10,645 bases of DNA, taken from positions 1 to 10,645 of the forward strand of contig JAKQGS010000048.1 of the NCBI GenBank assembly GCA_029556045.1, in the 5' to 3' direction. The notes below the pieces were generated by a model. The model was not told where the DNA came from. It ran no database searches and was given only the letters and a program-made list of their open reading frames with translations. The stretch's first letter is position 1. Every line of letters begins with the position of its first letter. A program made the translations under genes and the position numbers. Of this stretch, positions 2,413 through 9,358 are shown in pieces. This DNA is from Pseudomonadota bacterium. GTDB lineage: Bacteria; Bdellovibrionota; Oligoflexia; Oligoflexales; Oligoflexaceae.

Positions 2413-2694
2413 TTATTTGCCTTTACGAACGATTTCTTTCAGCATGGCGCCAGCGCGGAAAACCGGAACGGTGCGGGCTGGGATTTTGATGGTCTTGCCA
2501 GTCTGTGGGTTGCGGCCAGTGCGAGCTTTGCGCTTAGCGGTGGTGAAGGTCCCAAAACCTACGAGCTTAACGCCTTCGCCTTTTTTGATGTTCTTTTCAA
2601 CAGTGGTCATGAAAGCGGTCAGCCAACGCTCACAGTCTGCTTTGGAGCAGTCGGTTTGTTTGGCGAGGCTTTCGATCAGTTCTGCGCGATTCAT
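2413..2694 (-). CDS. hup: HU-family histone-like DNA-binding protein
   Basis: Small basic nucleoid protein that dimerises and bends DNA without strong sequence preference. The 93-residue product has the usual family length. Residues 1-40 form the helical dimer base (starts MNRAELIESLAKQ), 41-53 hold the conserved VKLVGFGTF strand, and the DNA-binding arm carries GRNPQTGK with the intercalating proline P63, followed by IPARTVPVFRAG and a lysine-rich C-terminal helix. The start has AAGGAG 5 bases upstream. It has its own promoter and terminator, so it is monocistronic. Two cysteines (C16, C21) in the N-terminal helices are an unusual detail. The sequence fits HU better than IHF, but alpha- and beta-type HU cannot be separated here. 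Confidence 0.96.
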   Translation of the reverse strand: MNRAELIESLAKQTDCSKADCERWLTAFMTTVEKNIKKGEGVKLVGFGTFTTAKRKARTGRNPQTGKTIKIPARTVPVFRAGAMLKEIVRKGK

Positions 2695-2727
2695 AAGAAC
2701 TCCTTTTCTTTCTCAACGAAAAACAAA

Positions 2728-2756
2728 AATGTAAATGAGTGATGAAGTATTGTTAA
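2728..2756 (-). promoter_or_regulatory. Putative sigma70-type promoter for the HU gene
   Basis: On the minus strand TTAACA (2751-2756) and TACATT (2728-2733) are exactly 17 bases apart. The region between it and the start codon is A/T-rich. Transcription would start near 2721, giving a leader of about 27 bases before the HU ATG. Confidence 0.5.
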
Positions 2757-2917
2757 ACGGATTCACCTAGCGACGCAAGCTTTTCCTACACATGGATCAT
2801 AATTTTTTCCGCGCGTTACCCCTGACCACCGGCGTTACGGGGGATACCTCCCGCACCACAACATCGGCAAAACCCTTCACCGCAGTGGTTCCACAAATTC
2901 CAAGCCCACCATCATCC

Positions 2918-2945
2918 TTGAGTTTTGCATCATGCGTGCTAAGAT
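2918..2945 (+). promoter_or_regulatory. Putative sigma70-type promoter for ispA
   Basis: TTGAGT (2918-2923) and TAAGAT (2940-2945) are 16 bases apart. Predicted transcription start is near 2952, about 30 bases before the ATG at 2984. This promoter lies inside the longer open frame that begins at 2792, which supports the downstream start for ispA. Confidence 0.5.
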
Positions 2946-2983
2946 CCCCCCGGTCGCAAACACCAACCCACATGAGGATTCCC

Positions 2984-3862
2984 ATGACACCGCCCCACCT
3001 GCAAGGAGCTTTTTCTGACTACCTCCGCTCCTATCACCGCAGTCTTCCTCACGAGAGGGGTAACTTCTGGGAAGCTTATCGTTACGCCCTCGATGGTGCC
3101 GGTAAAAGGGTGCGCCCCATGCTGGTGCTGCTCGGCAACCAAGCTATGGGGGGGCGCATCGACAACGCTCTCCCCGCCGCCTTGGCGGTGGAAATGATTC
3201 ACACCTATAGTTTGATCCACGACGATCTCCCCTGTATGGACAACGACAGCCTGCGACGGGGACGCCCCACCCTGCATGTGGCTTTTGATGAGGCCACCGC
3301 TCTGCTGGTGGGGGACGCACTCTTGACGGACGCCTTTCACGTCTTGACCACAGGGATACCAGAGATGCCTCATTCCCCCCGTCCAGACGACGCTCTGGCG
3401 ATGGTGCGGGAACTCAGCTCCTGTGCCGGGGGACTTGGCATGGTGGGAGGACAGGCGATGGATACTTACTGGACCGGACGTCCCGGCTACCTTCAGCAGG
3501 ATCTTGATGGCATACACCGCCGCAAGACCGGCCGCCTGATCGCCGCGTCCCTGGCGCTGGGAGGCATCGGCGCTCATGCAGACGAAACAGCGGTGCAGGC
3601 GCTGCACACCTGTGGTGAAAAGGTGGGGCTGGCTTTCCAGATCATCGACGACACCCTGGATGAAACGGGGGGCATCGGCAAAACCTCCGGCAAAGACCTT
3701 GCCCAGGGAAAACTGACCTATCGGGCAGTGATGTCCCGCCCAGAGGCATTGGCCAAAGCGCGTCAGCTCACCGAAGATGCCCTTGCGGGCTTAAAGAAGC
3801 TGGCACCCAATGCAGAGGAACTACAAAATTATATCGAGGGTTTGCTGGAGCGGCGGATTTAG
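2984..3862 (+). CDS. ispA: Farnesyl diphosphate synthase (short-chain E-polyprenyl diphosphate synthase)
   Basis: Condenses isopentenyl diphosphate with dimethylallyl or geranyl diphosphate in the cytoplasm, supplying C15 precursor for undecaprenyl phosphate and quinones. The 292-residue product matches the length of bacterial IspA. It has GAGKRVRP near residues 38-45, the first Asp-rich motif D80-D-L-P-C-M-D86 followed by RRGRPTLH, and the second motif D222-D-T-L-D226 followed by GKTSGKDLAQGKLTY. The insertion inside the first motif (DDxxxxD) is typical of bacterial FPP/GGPP synthases. The start at 2984 has GAGGA 5 bases upstream; the frame is open back to 2792 but that region has no ribosome site, no family similarity and contains the putative promoter. 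GGPP synthase is the main alternative. No dxs or xseB partner is adjacent. The next gene starts 35 bases downstream. Confidence 0.93.
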   Translation: MTPPHLQGAFSDYLRSYHRSLPHERGNFWEAYRYALDGAGKRVRPMLVLLGNQAMGGRIDNALPAALAVEMIHTYSLIHDDLPCMDNDSLRRGRPTLHVAFDEATALLVGDALLTDAFHVLTTGIPEMPHSPRPDDALAMVRELSSCAGGLGMVGGQAMDTYWTGRPGYLQQDLDGIHRRKTGRLIAASLALGGIGAHADETAVQALHTCGEKVGLAFQIIDDTLDETGGIGKTSGKDLAQGKLTYRAVMSRPEALAKARQLTEDALAGLKKLAPNAEELQNYIEGLLERRI

Positions 3863-3869
3863 GTATTCT
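3842..3869 (+). promoter_or_regulatory. Putative promoter for the HepT-MntA cassette, inside the 3' end of ispA
   Basis: TTGCTG (3842-3847) and TATTCT (3864-3869) are 16 bases apart. The -35 lies in the last codons of ispA. The predicted start near 3876 falls inside the inverted repeat 3868-3887. Hexamer matches are moderate, so read-through from ispA remains possible. Confidence 0.35.
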
Positions 3870-3887
3870 GGGATATTACGATCCCAG
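3868..3887 (+). promoter_or_regulatory. Perfect inverted repeat, candidate operator or RBS-proximal hairpin
   Basis: CTGGGAT (3868-3874) and ATCCCAG (3881-3887) form a perfect 7-bp inverted repeat around a 6-base centre (ATTACG). It lies between the ispA stop and the hepT-like start, and ends two bases before the GAGG ribosome site (3889-3892). No T-tract follows, so it is not an intrinsic terminator. Its place over the predicted transcription start fits an autoregulation operator; an RNA hairpin next to the ribosome site is the alternative. The repeat is seen directly; its role is inferred. Confidence 0.5.
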
Positions 3888-3897
3888 CGAGGTACCC

Positions 3898-4293
3898 ATG
3901 ACACCGGAACAAAAAATTCGCTTTAAACTGGATGTCCTGATCAAGGCCTCCTCGTCACTGAAAAAAAGCCTGGCCCTACCCAAGGATGACATCGTTCGGG
4001 ATTCCGTGATTCAGCGGTTTGAGTATACCTACGAACTGGCGTGGAAAGCTGTTAAGCGATATCTGGAATACAATTCCGGCAAGGTTGAGTTTGTGGTTAA
4101 AAACATCTGGCGGGAAGCGGGGACCCAGGGACTGATCGATGATGTGGAATTATGGTTTTCATTCCACCTCGCACGGAACAAGACCTCCCACACCTACCAT
4201 GAACCCACGGCGGAGGAGGTTTATCAAAAAGCCAGGGAATTTTCCCCCTGCGTCGATGAATTAATCCGCCGCCTGGAGAAAAACATTGCCTAA
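3898..4293 (+). CDS. hepT: HEPN-domain protein of the HI0074/HepT type (candidate toxin)
   Basis: All-helical protein of 131 residues, the family length. Known relatives act as an RNase toxin (HepT) or were named nucleotidyltransferase substrate-binding subunits (HI0074). The family core is visible: IQRFEYTYELAWKAVKRYLE (about residues 38-57), a GLIDD turn at 78-82, and the HEPN active motif R93-N-K-T-S-H98-T-Y100, an exact Rx4HxY. In studied HepT proteins R and H are required for RNA cleavage and the Y is the residue AMPylated by the MntA antitoxin. All three are present, so the protein appears intact. The ATG has GAGG 5 bases upstream. Its stop overlaps the start of the nucleotidyltransferase gene, so the two are co-translated. 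Toxin-first order matches the Shewanella hepT-mntA operon as I recall it. Function is inferred from motifs and pairing. Confidence 0.85.
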   Translation: MTPEQKIRFKLDVLIKASSSLKKSLALPKDDIVRDSVIQRFEYTYELAWKAVKRYLEYNSGKVEFVVKNIWREAGTQGLIDDVELWFSFHLARNKTSHTYHEPTAEEVYQKAREFSPCVDELIRRLEKNIA

Positions 4294-4651
4294 CCCCATC
4301 GATCCAACCACATTTGGATTCACTGCGGCGCAGGCTCAACTGCTCAGAGAGCAAATCGAAAAAGTTCTTTTGCCGGGGCAGGCCATCGATGTGTGGATTT
4401 TTGGCTCCCGCGCCCGGGGAACCCATCGGCGGTATAGCGATGTGGACATCGTTATATCGACGAAAGCTGGCGCAGCCTTTACCCACCGCCAAAAGCTGGA
4501 CCTCCAGGACGCCATCGAGGACAGTGATTTCCCGTACAAGGTGGAATGGGTTCTTGAGCCGGACATTTATCCTCCCTATCGTCCAGGGATTCAGGCGGAT
4601 CGCAAAATGTTGTTTCCAAGCCTTGCGAATCCGCAGCCCATCCCGACATAA
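4286..4651 (+). CDS. mntA: MNT-domain minimal nucleotidyltransferase (candidate MntA antitoxin, HI0073-like)
   Basis: Single-domain DNA polymerase beta-fold nucleotidyltransferase of 121 residues. The motif G40-S41 ... D52-V-D54 is an exact GSx10DxD, with the two metal-binding aspartates kept, and E87 (in KVEW) takes the place of the third carboxylate. In studied MntA-HepT pairs this enzyme transfers AMP to the Tyr of the HepT Rx4HxY motif and so neutralises it. The start is TTG at 4286: GGAG lies 7 bases upstream, and no ATG or GTG occurs in frame before the catalytic core. The 8-base overlap with the upstream gene (TTGCCTAA) implies translational coupling, which would tie antitoxin supply to toxin synthesis. 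The third acid as Glu instead of the more usual Asp is a mild oddity. The antitoxin role is inferred; nucleotidyltransferase activity is well supported by the motif. Confidence 0.85.
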   Translation: MPNPIDPTTFGFTAAQAQLLREQIEKVLLPGQAIDVWIFGSRARGTHRRYSDVDIVISTKAGAAFTHRQKLDLQDAIEDSDFPYKVEWVLEPDIYPPYRPGIQADRKMLFPSLANPQPIPT

Positions 4652-4704: not shown

Positions 4705-4741
4705 ATCCAACAATCCGCCCTATTCGATGAAGGAGTCCCTT

Positions 4742-5827
4742 ATGTACCGAATGGTACGGGCTTTGGTTTTAGCCCTTCCTCTGATGACGTCCGTGGCATG
4801 GACCGGATCCCTGGAAGCAAAGTTCTATGAAAGTTTTGCGGACGTGGCGGAGCGGGCCATCCCTGGGGTGGTCAACATCCGTACCACCCAGTACGTCAGC
4901 GGTCGGGATGCAGTTCTTGATCCCTACCAGTTTTTCCTGAGGGGGCGTCAGCCCCGCAGTGCGGAGAATCATTCGCTGGGCAGCGGGCTGATCCTGGATA
5001 CCCGCGGTTACATCATCACCAATTACCACGTTATCCAGGGAGCGAATGTCATCGATATCCTGTTTGCCAAAAGCAAACAAAAGGCCCGCGCCACCATCGT
5101 GGGGGTGGATCAGAAAACCGATCTGGCACTGCTCAAAATCAATCCACGCAAGGGCCTATCCCCTCTGGATCTGGGGGACAGCGACAAGTTGCGGGTGGGA
5201 GACATCGTGTTGGCCATCGGTAACCCCTTTGGGTTTGCCCATACGGTAACCAGCGGTATCATTTCTGCGAAGGGTCGTGTGATTGGCACAGGCCCCTATG
5301 AAAGTTTTCTCCAGACCGACGCCCCCATCCATCCCGGCAACTCCGGCGGTCCCCTGATCGACGTGCGGGGACGAGTCATCGGTATCAATACCGCAGTGAG
5401 TGCAGAAGGTGCCGGGATCGGTTTTGCCATTCCTATCAATATGGTAAAGGATGTCGTACGCGACCTCATTCAACACGGAAAAGTGGTGCGCCCTTGGCTG
5501 GGGATCGTGGGGAAAAACATCGTGTCCGTCGATGACCTGGGGGACAGTTATGATCCGCAGGGCGTCTATGGGGTCATCGTGGAAAACCTGATCGTGGATG
5601 GTCCGTCCCATCATGCCGGACTGAAGATCGGCGATCTGATTATGTCCATGAATGGGGAGAAGGTTTTCGACATCAATATGCTGCAGCGATTTTTGAGCCA
5701 GCGCAGCCCCCGCGACAAGGTTAAACTGCGGGTTTACCGGCGAACCCGTGGGTTTTTAGAGGTAACGGTACCCCTGTCTGAAATACCGAAAGCCCAGGAA
5801 CTGCCGCAGGAAAAGGACCTATTCTAG
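4742..5827 (+). CDS. Periplasmic HtrA-family serine protease, single PDZ domain (DegS/DegQ-like)
   Basis: Trypsin-fold protease for envelope protein quality control or stress signalling. At 361 residues with one PDZ domain it has the size of DegS rather than DegP. Residues 1-26 form a Sec signal peptide (basic MYRMVRA, then a hydrophobic stretch, likely cleavage near SLEA-KF), so it is probably secreted rather than tethered. The protease domain carries the full triad: H96 (TNYHVI), D127 (KTDLALL) and S201 (GNSGGPL), with the IGNPFG segment at 159-164. The PDZ domain spans about 245-345 and includes GVIVENLIVDGPSHHAGLKIGD. The usual N before PGNSGG is H197 here. The start at 4742 has AAGGAG 6 bases upstream; the in-frame ATG at 4727 has no ribosome site. 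It lies 90 bases downstream of the HepT-MntA cassette and probably has its own promoter. Which of the DegP/Q/S roles it fills cannot be decided from sequence. Confidence 0.93.
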   Translation: MYRMVRALVLALPLMTSVAWTGSLEAKFYESFADVAERAIPGVVNIRTTQYVSGRDAVLDPYQFFLRGRQPRSAENHSLGSGLILDTRGYIITNYHVIQGANVIDILFAKSKQKARATIVGVDQKTDLALLKINPRKGLSPLDLGDSDKLRVGDIVLAIGNPFGFAHTVTSGIISAKGRVIGTGPYESFLQTDAPIHPGNSGGPLIDVRGRVIGINTAVSAEGAGIGFAIPINMVKDVVRDLIQHGKVVRPWLGIVGKNIVSVDDLGDSYDPQGVYGVIVENLIVDGPSHHAGLKIGDLIMSMNGEKVFDINMLQRFLSQRSPRDKVKLRVYRRTRGFLEVTVPLSEIPKAQELPQEKDLF

Positions 5828-5832
5828 GCATG

Positions 5833-5849
5833 GATATTGCAATAATATC
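5833..5849 (+). terminator. Weak A/T-rich hairpin after the HtrA gene
   Basis: GATATT/AATATC forms a 6-bp stem with a 5-base loop, 6 bases after the stop codon, followed by only three T. It is a poor intrinsic terminator because the stem is A/T-rich. It is the only candidate close behind the gene. Confidence 0.25.
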
Positions 5850-5864
5850 TTTGGGTTATAAAAT
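5837..5864 (+). promoter_or_regulatory. Tentative promoter for the calpain-like lipoprotein gene
   Basis: TTGCAA (5837-5842) and TAAAAT (5859-5864) are 16 bases apart in the A+T-rich stretch 5828-5960. This would give a leader of about 100 bases. In such A/T-rich DNA hexamer matches arise easily by chance. Confidence 0.25.
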
Positions 5865-5973: not shown

Positions 5974-7155
5974 ATGCAAACGAAATATCTGGCTTTTGCG
6001 TTACTGGCATCAGTAGTTGCCTGCAAAAAACCAAGCGATGCATCCAGCCTGAGAGCCGGTAGTTCCACTCCGCAGGATACCAGTGCCATCAGCAACCTTT
6101 TTGCATCAGCGCCCGCTAATAGCATCAACGTTATTACCAAAGCCTTTCAAACTGCGGGTGCTGACAAGGATGTGACACCGGATGAGGCTCGCGCCATTAT
6201 GACGGGAATTTATCTCAATAACGTAACGCTGGCGGAATCCCGGCGGTTTCGCGATCTGACGGATCCGGATTTTTGGGCCTTTAGCCGGGATGTGGAACGA
6301 GACACCTTTGCGGTGTTTGCCACCTTCGCCGGAGCGCCTGCTCAGGAGCCAACCTTGCCAGCCCCCCCGCCTTTGGCTGCATCCATTTCCGGAGCGGTCT
6401 TTATGCCGGTGGATGGGGATGTCATGCGGGTGAGCGACGCCATCAACCTGCGCCAGGGTCTCGTCAATGATAGTTATTTTCTGGCCACTGTGATGGCAGC
6501 CCAGGCCAAAGGCCCTCGGTTTCATAAGCGGATCGTTCAAAATGATGACGGCACCTTTGGTGTGAAGTTTTTCAATTGCAGCGGCTCGGGACAGGGCATT
6601 GCCGCAGAAACCGTTCAAGTCAATGGCTCTCTGCCCGTCTATACCGGCAATAAACTGGTGGGGGCCCACAATAAGGATGCCATGGAAATGTGGCCGTCCA
6701 TCGTGGAAAAGGCTTATGCCACCTGGAAAGGCGGCTATGACAAGATCGAAGACGGCAGCCCCTCTCTCGCCAATGCCCTTTGTGAAAACTCCGGAGTGGC
6801 TGTGGAATCAGTTTCAGACTTAAGTGTGCTTCCTGATCAGGGCGTGGCACTTTTTGATAAAATGCGAGCGTATGACCTCAACAAACAGCCGATGGTGGCC
6901 ACCACCGGAGCGGAAGTTGGGGCCACCGGCCTGCAGCCCAATACCACGTACGCGGTGTCCCAAGCGATCCTGCGGGATAAGGGCACCACCCGCATCATTG
7001 AACTGCGTGCCACCAAAGGTCCTGCTGGTGAGCCCGCCAGCAATGGCAGCGCTCTCGATGGCGATCCCGATGGAGAATTCCGCATCAACTATGAATACTT
7101 CCTGCGGTATTTCCAAAAGGTGGACATGGCCTCCACAAAGCCGGCTGATCTTTAA
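5974..7155 (+). CDS. Lipoprotein with a catalytically dead calpain-like (peptidase C2) domain
   Basis: 393-residue product. Residues 1-16 are a lipoprotein signal peptide with lipobox VVA-C17, followed by KK, a Ser/Thr-rich linker, a helical region (about 45-115) and a Pro-rich linker (PTLPAPPP). From about residue 150 it follows the calpain protease core: LRQGLVNDSYFLA matches the family's QGxLGDCWFLA, then the calpain-like DGTFGVKFF and MWPSIVEKAYATWKGGYDKI, TTYAV where the family has HAYSV, ELRATKG where it has LRNPWG, and the closing DGEFRINYEYFLRYFQKVDM. Catalytic Cys is S167, His is T324 and Asn is A346, so no cysteine protease activity is expected, although the oxyanion-hole Gln (Q161) is kept. 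The start at 5974 has GAGGA 6 bases upstream. It lies behind the HtrA gene after a 146-base A+T-rich gap. Calpain ancestry is strongly supported; the present role (binding, scaffold) is unknown. Residues +2/+3 after Cys are KK, not Asp, so outer-membrane sorting is plausible by the E. coli rule. Confidence 0.8.
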   Translation: MQTKYLAFALLASVVACKKPSDASSLRAGSSTPQDTSAISNLFASAPANSINVITKAFQTAGADKDVTPDEARAIMTGIYLNNVTLAESRRFRDLTDPDFWAFSRDVERDTFAVFATFAGAPAQEPTLPAPPPLAASISGAVFMPVDGDVMRVSDAINLRQGLVNDSYFLATVMAAQAKGPRFHKRIVQNDDGTFGVKFFNCSGSGQGIAAETVQVNGSLPVYTGNKLVGAHNKDAMEMWPSIVEKAYATWKGGYDKIEDGSPSLANALCENSGVAVESVSDLSVLPDQGVALFDKMRAYDLNKQPMVATTGAEVGATGLQPNTTYAVSQAILRDKGTTRIIELRATKGPAGEPASNGSALDGDPDGEFRINYEYFLRYFQKVDMASTKPADL

Positions 7156-7161: not shown

Positions 7162-7194
7162 AGAGAATCCGAACAGATACTTCCTCGCTTTACT

Positions 7195-7239
7195 GATAAT
7201 GATACGCCCCTGGCTCCTTCAGGCCAGGGGCCCATTATC
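7195..7239 (+). terminator. Long two-part hairpin, terminator-like but without a T-tract
   Basis: An inner 9-bp perfect stem GCCCCTGGC (7206-7214) with GCCAGGGGC (7223-7231) and 8-base loop is extended by an outer perfect 7-bp stem GATAATG (7195-7201) with CATTATC (7233-7239), separated by a 4/1-base internal loop. No run of T follows on either strand (CCTCTATAAT on the plus strand). It probably marks the end of the lipoprotein transcript, but it could also act as an RNA stabiliser or a protein site. Confidence 0.5.
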
Positions 7240-7309
7240 CCTCTATAATCACTGGAATTTTTAAAGCATTGCGCCCCTTGCGTTCCCCATTGTTTTTTCC
7301 AGAAATCCC

Positions 7310-7338
7310 TTTTTAAAGCCCATTTTCCCCGTTATACT
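7310..7338 (+). promoter_or_regulatory. Putative promoter for transketolase
   Basis: TATACT (7333-7338) is a good -10 hexamer. The -35 region is weak (TTTTTA at 7310-7315, 17 bases upstream). Predicted start is near 7345, with a leader of about 50 bases that contains an eight-T run (7349-7356). Confidence 0.35.
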
Positions 7339-7393: not shown

Positions 7394-9358
7394 ATGAACG
7401 ATTTACAGACGATCAATGTATTAAAAGGACTGGTGATTGACGGGGTCAACAAAGCCCAATCGGGGCATCCCGGTGGCGCCATGTCCAGCATGGACTTCGC
7501 TTATCTGCTGTTCACGGAGTTTCTCAACTATTCCCCCGACGATCCCCGCTGGCTGGGACGAGACCGCTTTATCCTCAGCGCTGGTCATGAGTCGATGCTG
7601 ATTTACTCGCTGCTGCACATGCAGGGTTTTTTGGGTATGGATGAGCTGAAACGCTTTCGCCAGCTCCACTCCAAAACCCCCGGACACCCGGAAAACTATT
7701 TGACCCCCGGCATTGAATGCACCACTGGCCCCCTGGGGCAAGGGGTGGCCATGTCGGTGGGGTTTGCCATCGCCGCCAAGCATCTGGCCGCCACACAGGA
7801 CTCTGAGCTGTTCAATTATAAGATCTGGGCCCTGATGGGGGATGGCTGCGTGCAGGAAGGCGTCACCCTGGCGGCCGCCTCCACCGCTGGTCATTTTAAA
7901 CTGAACAACCTCATCTGGTTTTACGACCGCAACCGGGTACAGATCTCCGGCCGCATCGATCGTTCAGTGTCTGATGATCATAAAAAAGTTTTTGAAGGCT
8001 CCGGCTGGCACGTGGTGGAAGTGGATGGCCATGACCACGGCAAACTGCGGGCGGTGATGGAAGAAGCCCGCAGCGGCAAACATCAAAAGCCGTTTTTGAT
8101 CATCGGGGACACCACCATGGCCCGGGGAACTTTTTCAATGGAAGGCAGCGCCAAAACCCACGGCTCACCGCTGCCTGCCGACGAGCGCCTCAAGACCAAA
8201 GAAAAACTCGGCTTACCCACCGATCAGGATTTTTACTGCCCCACCGAAGCGGTGCAACACTTCCGCCGCAATTGGGACGGACTGCGGCAGAAAGTCGCTG
8301 GGTGGAATCAGCGCTTTGAAACAAAACTGGCCAGTGACAGCAAGTTCAAGTCGTTTTACGAACAGGCCTTTAACCCCAACGCATCCTACTCACACCTTCC
8401 CCCCATGGAATGGCCGCGGGACAAGGCGGTGGCGACCCGTAACGCCTTTGGGGACATCATTGAAAAATGGGCGGATCATCTGCCGCAGCTGATTGGGGGC
8501 AGCGCCGACCTGGAGCCTTCCAATATGACTGGGGCGTTTGCCAAAAAGGTGGGAGACTTTGGGGGCGAAACACCACAGAACCGCAATATTTCATTTGGGG
8601 TGCGGGAATTTCCCATGTCCGCCATCGCCAACGGCATCGCCCTGCATGGGGGCTTGATCCCTTTTGATGCCACCTTCCTGTCGTTTGCGGATTATTCGCG
8701 TCCTGCGCTGCGGTTGGGAGCGATTCAAAAGGTGCGGGTGATCCATGAGTTCACCCACGACTCCTTTCAACTGGGAGAAGACGGCCCCACCCACCAGCCG
8801 GTGGAGCACCTGATGTCCTTGCGGGTGATTCCCAACTTTTATGTGATGCGCCCCGCTGATGCCTTTGAAACCGAAATGATGTTCCGCACCGCCCTCACCC
8901 TGCAGGCACCATCCGCCATCTGTCTCTCGCGGCAGAATCTGCCAATCCTGCCGTTAACCCGTGAGCAGGTGGCTCAATCGGTTCGGGGAGCCTACACCAT
9001 CAGTGGCCCCGAGGATGCCACCATGACCCTTATCGCCACCGGGGGCGAAGTGGCCCTGGCCATGGAAGTGGCGAAACGCATCACGGATCGCACGGTTAAA
9101 GTGGTATCGATGCCCTGCTGGGAATTGTTTGAAGCTCAAGATGCCTCTTACCGCCATCGCGTCATCAATCCAAACTGCTCACAGCTGGTATCCATGGAAG
9201 CTGGAACCACATTAGGGTGGCAAAAGTACACCGGCGCTAAGGGGCTGAACATCGGCTTGGATCATTTTGGCGACAGCGCTCCCGCCAAAGATCTCGAAAA
9301 AGAATATGGCTTCACGCCCGATCAGGTGACGGAGCGGATTCGCCAGCATTTTGGGTAA
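7394..9358 (+). CDS. tkt: Transketolase
   Basis: Thiamine-diphosphate enzyme moving two-carbon units between ketose and aldose phosphates in the non-oxidative pentose phosphate pathway, in the cytoplasm. The 654 residues are close to the usual ~660. Visible sites: H25 in SGHPGG, H65 in SAGHES, the ThDP/metal motif starting G149-D-G151 and ending near FYDRN, catalytic E405 in GVREFPMSAIANGIALHGG, and the substrate-binding D463 and H467 in GEDGPTHQP, followed by CLSRQNLP. The order is the full pyrimidine/PP/C-terminal layout. The start has AAGGTGG 6 bases upstream. The first-domain wording (FAYLLFTEFLNY, SAGHESMLIYSLLHMQG) differs from E. coli TktA (SNGHGSML) and resembles another bacterial subtype. 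It is monocistronic: its own promoter region and a clear terminator; no transaldolase or Rpe gene is nearby. Confidence 0.97.
   Translation: MNDLQTINVLKGLVIDGVNKAQSGHPGGAMSSMDFAYLLFTEFLNYSPDDPRWLGRDRFILSAGHESMLIYSLLHMQGFLGMDELKRFRQLHSKTPGHPENYLTPGIECTTGPLGQGVAMSVGFAIAAKHLAATQDSELFNYKIWALMGDGCVQEGVTLAAASTAGHFKLNNLIWFYDRNRVQISGRIDRSVSDDHKKVFEGSGWHVVEVDGHDHGKLRAVMEEARSGKHQKPFLIIGDTTMARGTFSMEGSAKTHGSPLPADERLKTKEKLGLPTDQDFYCPTEAVQHFRRNWDGLRQKVAGWNQRFETKLASDSKFKSFYEQAFNPNASYSHLPPMEWPRDKAVATRNAFGDIIEKWADHLPQLIGGSADLEPSNMTGAFAKKVGDFGGETPQNRNISFGVREFPMSAIANGIALHGGLIPFDATFLSFADYSRPALRLGAIQKVRVIHEFTHDSFQLGEDGPTHQPVEHLMSLRVIPNFYVMRPADAFETEMMFRTALTLQAPSAICLSRQNLPILPLTREQVAQSVRGAYTISGPEDATMTLIATGGEVALAMEVAKRITDRTVKVVSMPCWELFEAQDASYRHRVINPNCSQLVSMEAGTTLGWQKYTGAKGLNIGLDHFGDSAPAKDLEKEYGFTPDQVTERIRQHFG

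Follow-up and report, generated by a model that had tools for sequence, protein, structure and literature searches.

Calpain homologues that would no longer cut are known mainly from eukaryotes, with a single bacterial case in the accessible text of the 2015 survey by Rawlings (PMC4631099). There, 337 of 3795 calpain homologues are counted as non-peptidases by their unconserved active-site residues, the bacterial homologues are all predicted to be peptidases except the one from Frankia sp. EUN1f, and signal peptides are predicted in 3 of 66 bacterial homologues. Also, the accessible text of a 2022 study (PMC9380684) reports the catalytic triad in 13 of 13 cyanobacterial calpains. Here, we analyze a gene at positions 5974..7155 on the forward strand of a 10,645-nucleotide stretch of DNA (contig JAKQGS010000048.1, from a bacterium of the Oligoflexaceae; hereafter the window), which codes for a calpain homologue of 393 amino acids with a putative lipoprotein signal peptide and with other residues at all three catalytic positions. 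No report of a bacterial pseudo-calpain lipoprotein was found in the open-licence literature, judged mainly by titles and abstract openings.

A calpain core with its catalytic triad replaced

The reading frame (all features given here are on the forward strand) continues over 393 codons without interruption, and Pfam assigns residues 156-346 to Peptidase_C2 (PF00648; E 6.2e-15, 55.5 bits against a cut-off of 23.8), this being the sole Pfam family above its cut-off. A bacterial calpain profile covers residues 155-386 with 158 bits, and the sequence matches in the PDB are calpains (calpain-1, -2, -3, -5, -8, and -9), with 'qglvndsyfla' of the window protein standing opposite 'qgalgdcwlla' of calpain-1. 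Moreover, the predicted structure adopts the calpain protease-core fold. Profile match, alignments, and model together bear out the calpain relationship proposed in the initial annotation. The core (CysPc, 6367..7137, about residues 132-388) extends almost to the end of the 393 residues and PF00648 is the only Pfam match, the C2-like and EF-hand domains of classical calpains being absent. A match to TerB (E 0.12, below the cut-off) was taken as chance, and a viral fold search gave one match at E < 0.001.

Several positions outside the triad can be placed on the classical enzymes. In the PDB alignment, and as sequence positions only, N158 and E238 lie opposite D106 and E185 of calpain-1, which we take to be calcium site 1 residues of the core. 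The calcium site 1 residues of calpain-2 are given in the accessible text of PMC4631099. A well-kept family motif, WPSIVEKAYATWKGGYDKI, occupies residues 240-258 (6691..6747) according to the MAFFT alignment and the conservation table. G261 is also kept, opposite the second glycine of calpain-1 'sggs', presumably a position of the cleft.

The active site is where the protein departs from its family. S167 (AGT, 6472..6474) stands at the position of the nucleophilic Cys in the PDB, profile, and MAFFT alignments, T324 (ACC, 6943..6945) at that of the His in the profile and MAFFT alignments, and A346-T347-K348 (GCC, ACC, and AAA; 7009..7017) are found in the profile alignment where the family has Asn-Pro-Trp. 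Over 141 aligned rows, these residues are conserved to 99% (Cys), 99% (His), 96% (Asn), 99% (Pro), and 73% (Trp). Of the residues that mark an active C2 peptidase, the window protein thus retains the oxyanion Gln (Q161, 6454..6456, from the profile alignment and the conservation table) and, as aligned, has lost the catalytic Cys, His, and Asn; measured against the wording of the active-site definition in the accessible text of PMC4631099, all three residues are replaced. The residue assignments of the initial annotation, the AGT codon of the Ser, the retained Gln, and the spacings of 157 residues (S167 to T324) and 22 residues (T324 to A346), which follow from the aligned positions, were all recovered, and the replacement of the triad in a calpain homologue is confirmed. 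Misalignment was ruled out, the profile and MAFFT alignments concurring at the three sites and the PDB alignment at the Cys. Sequencing error was ruled out as well because several bases differ across these codons, which lie at least one, at least two, and at least two bases away from the nearest Cys, His, and Asn codons, respectively. With none of the cutting residues left, the most likely activity of the protein is binding of some kind and not cleavage.

To place this active site among its homologues, PF00648 was searched in the group of the nearest relative, where 1 of 58 genomes has a calpain, and in the phyla of the other records brought in by a transketolase scan. These phyla, identified by the record that introduced each, gave calpains in 86 of 377 genomes (L041, taken to be Myxococcota), 44 of 292 above the family cut-off or 69 at E 0.001 (L019, taken to be Cyanobacteria), 9 of 294 (L042, taken to be Planctomycetota), 4 of 296 (L059, taken to be Bacteroidota), and 1 of 247 (L022, taken to be Desulfobacterota), a stricter cut-off of 1e-7 being used for the last three. 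The survey took in 109 of 139 rows from the L041 phylum (30 left out) and 33 of 93 from the L019 phylum, and the remaining sets whole (1 from the group of the nearest relative, 14, 4, and 1 from the phyla of L042, L059, and L022), and together with the database-search proteins comprised 298 rows, 163 being open reading frames (ORFs) of 160 loci and 135 being proteins, the window's included, with near-identical rows kept in.

The triad reads plainly as Cys/His/Asn in 284 of the 298 rows, and P0072 shows it together with an extra letter from a second aligned stretch. Two rows have Cys/His/Asp. Six others have the Cys with the further sites cut off or unaligned (C/-/- or C/H/-), and L217 is a piece without the Cys part, divided over two frames; these seven were not scored intact. 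The Cys is missing in only four rows: the window protein (S/T/A), L221 (I/H/N), L249 (G/H/D), and L227, in which the Cys motif is lost, the His is uncertain, and an Asp occupies the Asn site. Among the database-search proteins, the other 134 all carry Cys, His, and Asn (133 plainly, and P0072), and a Ser at the Cys position occurs in none of the 297 other aligned rows. Given such constancy, the replacements in the window protein exceed what chance would produce. The only calpain match in the 58 genomes of the host's group, L081, has an intact triad and a repetitive N terminus truncated at the locus boundary.

At its N terminus, the window protein has a predicted signal peptide with the lipobox VVA-C (5974..6024), in which Cys17 (6022-6024) would be the lipidated residue; MQTKYLAFALLASVVA-C17 matches a simple lipobox pattern in a pattern scan. 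A Ser/Ala-rich tether follows (residues 18-36, 6025..6081), with pLDDT below 50 up to residue 31 and a helix from residue 37, where a region of helices in the predicted structure begins (residues 37-118, 6082..6327). By profile, this region is weakly similar over residues 55-99 to the N terminus of Myxococcota calpains of about 345 residues (9.4 bits, against 5.0 bits for the best shuffle, 180 of 200 shuffles having scored). By the same simple pattern, a lipobox is present in at least six of the 298 rows, namely, the window protein, L131, L134, L172, L176, and L181, this count being a lower bound because the loci are stop-to-stop frames, some of which begin at contig ends. The latter five, from the phylum of L041, all have an intact triad. 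Of the anchor through Cys17 claimed in the initial annotation, the signal peptide with lipobox stands as a pattern match. Bacterial calpains with a lipobox occur outside the window too, and what is seen only here among the 298 rows is a presumably dead calpain that bears one.

Maintained protein or young relic

Whether the gene is still in use can be judged from what it has kept. The protein retains 24 of 35 conserved non-catalytic columns (0.69) and has lost 11, and the 33 rows listed with similar or lower mean identity keep 0.46 to 0.86 of them, including L227 (0.46) and L221 (0.57), both of which also are without the Cys. Seven columns are conserved to at least 95%; the protein retains three of them (Q161, G162, and E245) and has lost the other four, namely, the triad and the Pro that follows the Asn. 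When neutral change was simulated, at least two stops were present in every run that had replaced five generic active-site codons, with one qualifying run at each of the two lowest distances. The synonymous codon score of the gene is 0.158, within the 0.04-0.33 of the other eight genes, unselected codons scoring -0.17 to -0.35, and its G+C resembles the surroundings. Signs of a pseudogene (stops, frameshifts, and lost codon bias) were not found, the frame being open and the codons host-like, in line with the simulation. The maintained-looking frame described in the initial annotation is upheld by the 393 codons, the profile match, the conserved positions, and the simulation. The kept core positions, the stops in simulated drift, and the host-like codon choice argue against long-term drift; a recent loss of use is compatible with the data.

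Several observations weigh against a maintained protein. Only 23 of the 141 rows keep fewer conserved non-catalytic positions, the family mean being 0.80, and 4 of the 11 lost positions adjoin the triad, which may have cost the cleft its ability to bind a peptide. The simulation presumes even rates, and selection could alter active-site codons fast before a recent decay. The gene has a lower third-position G+C (0.584) than any of the other eight, although HU (0.585) comes close. Also, the terminal branch of the window protein measures 2.13, against a median of 0.51, and is exceeded in 6 of 95 tree rows, a length equally compatible with relaxed constraint and with a new role. The position of the protein in the tree is itself unsure (fork support of 86, drawn open, long branch), and for this reason no donor is named. 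Finally, the case rests on one sequence, as no orthologue turned up in a protein search (a database of 5.8 billion sequences, with the 7996 candidates sharing most words being scored), in the viral contigs searched, or in the 58 related genomes, where the search would miss distant relatives because it also missed L081, the sole calpain there.

On balance, we think that the product of the gene is probably a maintained non-peptidase homologue of calpain, exported and lipid-anchored, which binds a polypeptide or a partner, and that the gene would form a transcription unit of its own, located between degQ and the promoter of tkt. After export, Cys17 and the short, flexible tether would hold the protein at either the inner or the outer membrane, and its modeled two-lobed cleft, or else its surface, would bind a target, be it a polypeptide or a partner protein, and leave it uncut. 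The main rival is a relic not yet broken, that is, a calpain gene, perhaps transferred in and unneeded, which has lost catalysis and whose stop or frameshift is yet to come. The patchy distribution (a calpain match in 1 of 58 related genomes), the long branch, the 11 lost positions, and the fruitless orthologue searches all fit such a history, whereas the open frame, the host-like codon use, the kept fold positions, and the stops acquired in every qualifying drift run do not, and we regard it as a doubtful, if serious, contender.

An enzyme with an altered mechanism would have to use, for example, S167 as the nucleophile with another base. Ser is a possible nucleophile and the oxyanion Gln position is kept; however, Thr and Ala cannot substitute functionally for the catalytic His and Asn, the Pro and Trp of the Asn loop are gone, and no other aligned row has a Ser at this site, which makes continued catalysis highly improbable. 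A structural lipoprotein that merely borrows the calpain fold, with the old substrate cleft having no role, would account for the lipobox and linker and for the changed residues adjoining the triad, but not so readily for the kept motif at residues 240-258 or for the kept G261, and appears quite improbable. Going beyond a maintained binding protein, the window protein might be the founding member of a class, namely, bacterial pseudo-calpains tethered to a membrane whose entire active site, the Asn-Pro-Trp loop included, has been remodeled for binding. Such a protein would serve as a receptor for peptides, or else as a decoy capturing what active calpains cut or associate with, in parallel to calpamodulin of animals and independently evolved; this we hold to be rather unlikely. 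Overall, the interpretation offered in the initial annotation, a surface or periplasmic pseudoprotease used for binding or as a decoy or regulator, is partly supported.

Genomic setting

The gene lies between a degQ/htrA-type protease gene (4727..5827; scoring highest in NCBIfam against TIGR02037, with 350 bits where the cut-off is 416), with a 73% identical counterpart in L102, and the transketolase gene tkt (7394..9358; TIGR00232, above cut-off). The transketolase is 63% identical to that of an Oligoflexales metagenome-assembled genome, near which it puts the contig, the best two in the group being 69% (in G033) and 67%. The order PBP, degQ-type protease, tkt, and 3-hydroxyacyl-CoA dehydrogenase is common to four relatives. 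In nine related genomes (12 loci, three genomes being counted by two loci), the gap from the degQ-type gene to tkt is 53-161 bases with no calpain between, against 1566 bases containing the calpain gene in the window; the degQ-type protease of these genomes shares 56-73% identity with that of the window in five cases and 31-38% in the other four. This arrangement would fit a gain of the calpain gene by the lineage between degQ and the tkt promoter, its loss in the relatives examined being a less simple alternative.

A promoter-like TATACT precedes tkt (7333..7338), and in spacers compared by eye it recurs as TATACT in five of the nine genomes and as TATAAT in one. A strong hairpin lies 3' of the calpain stop (7195..7239; -27.3 kcal/mol, z of -4.1 for 7190-7260) and may mark a transcript end; it has no clear T run, and a terminator scan did not call a terminator there. 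Because the tkt spacer keeps its TATACT and a hairpin follows the calpain stop, the calpain gene may form its own transcription unit. Upstream of it, a promoter-like match at 5837-5864 (9 of 12 positions) is weak, four such sites being present against 1.4 expected.

Further upstream, HU, an ORF resembling polyprenyl synthases (judged by its sequence, with no family scan), and a pair of ORFs sit at 2413-4651 between the PBP and degQ genes. As these two genes are adjacent in four relatives, this segment would represent another insertion or rearrangement, next to that of the calpain gene. The paired ORFs (3898-4651) overlap and resemble a HEPN-MNT pair, an arrangement of type VII toxin-antitoxin systems; the HI0074-type ORF matches TIGR01987 above cut-off (90 bits) and the MntA-like nucleotidyltransferase ORF, with 29 bits, stays under a cut-off of 60.

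Comparison with described calpain homologues

The bacterial calpains of about 345 residues (P0002, P0003, and relatives, several from Myxococcota) have the same core, with about 31-33% identity over it, and an N-terminal region weakly similar to that of the window protein. They differ in that they, like all 134 other database-search proteins, keep Cys, His, and Asn, and none of these proteins fits the lipobox pattern. L131, L134, L172, L176, and L181 share both the N-terminal lipobox and the calpain core with the window protein and differ by their intact triad; moreover, the four that were read over their full length (L131, L134, L176, and L181) have a long C-terminal extension and cluster in the tree, unlike the window protein. 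On the other hand, L221 and L227 (phylum of L041) and L249 (a Pirellulales record from the phylum of L042) resemble it in having a core without the nucleophile, L221 retaining the His and Asn and L249 the His, and none showing Ser, Thr, and Ala. Because these three also are without the Cys, they provide a small set for asking what role dead bacterial calpains have.

To our knowledge, eukaryotic non-peptidase calpain homologues have no bacterial lipoprotein anchor. According to the accessible text of PMC4631099, calpamodulin, androglobin, and clp-3 of C. elegans have a calpain core whose active-site residues are replaced, and their role is presumed to be binding; they differ from the window protein in being eukaryotic. 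The Frankia sp. EUN1f homologue, the sole bacterial non-peptidase in that text and compared here by its description, is named for an unconserved Asn. The window protein, in which replacement of the full triad goes with an open frame and a lipobox, suggests that the calpain fold can be kept for a use other than cutting in bacteria as well.
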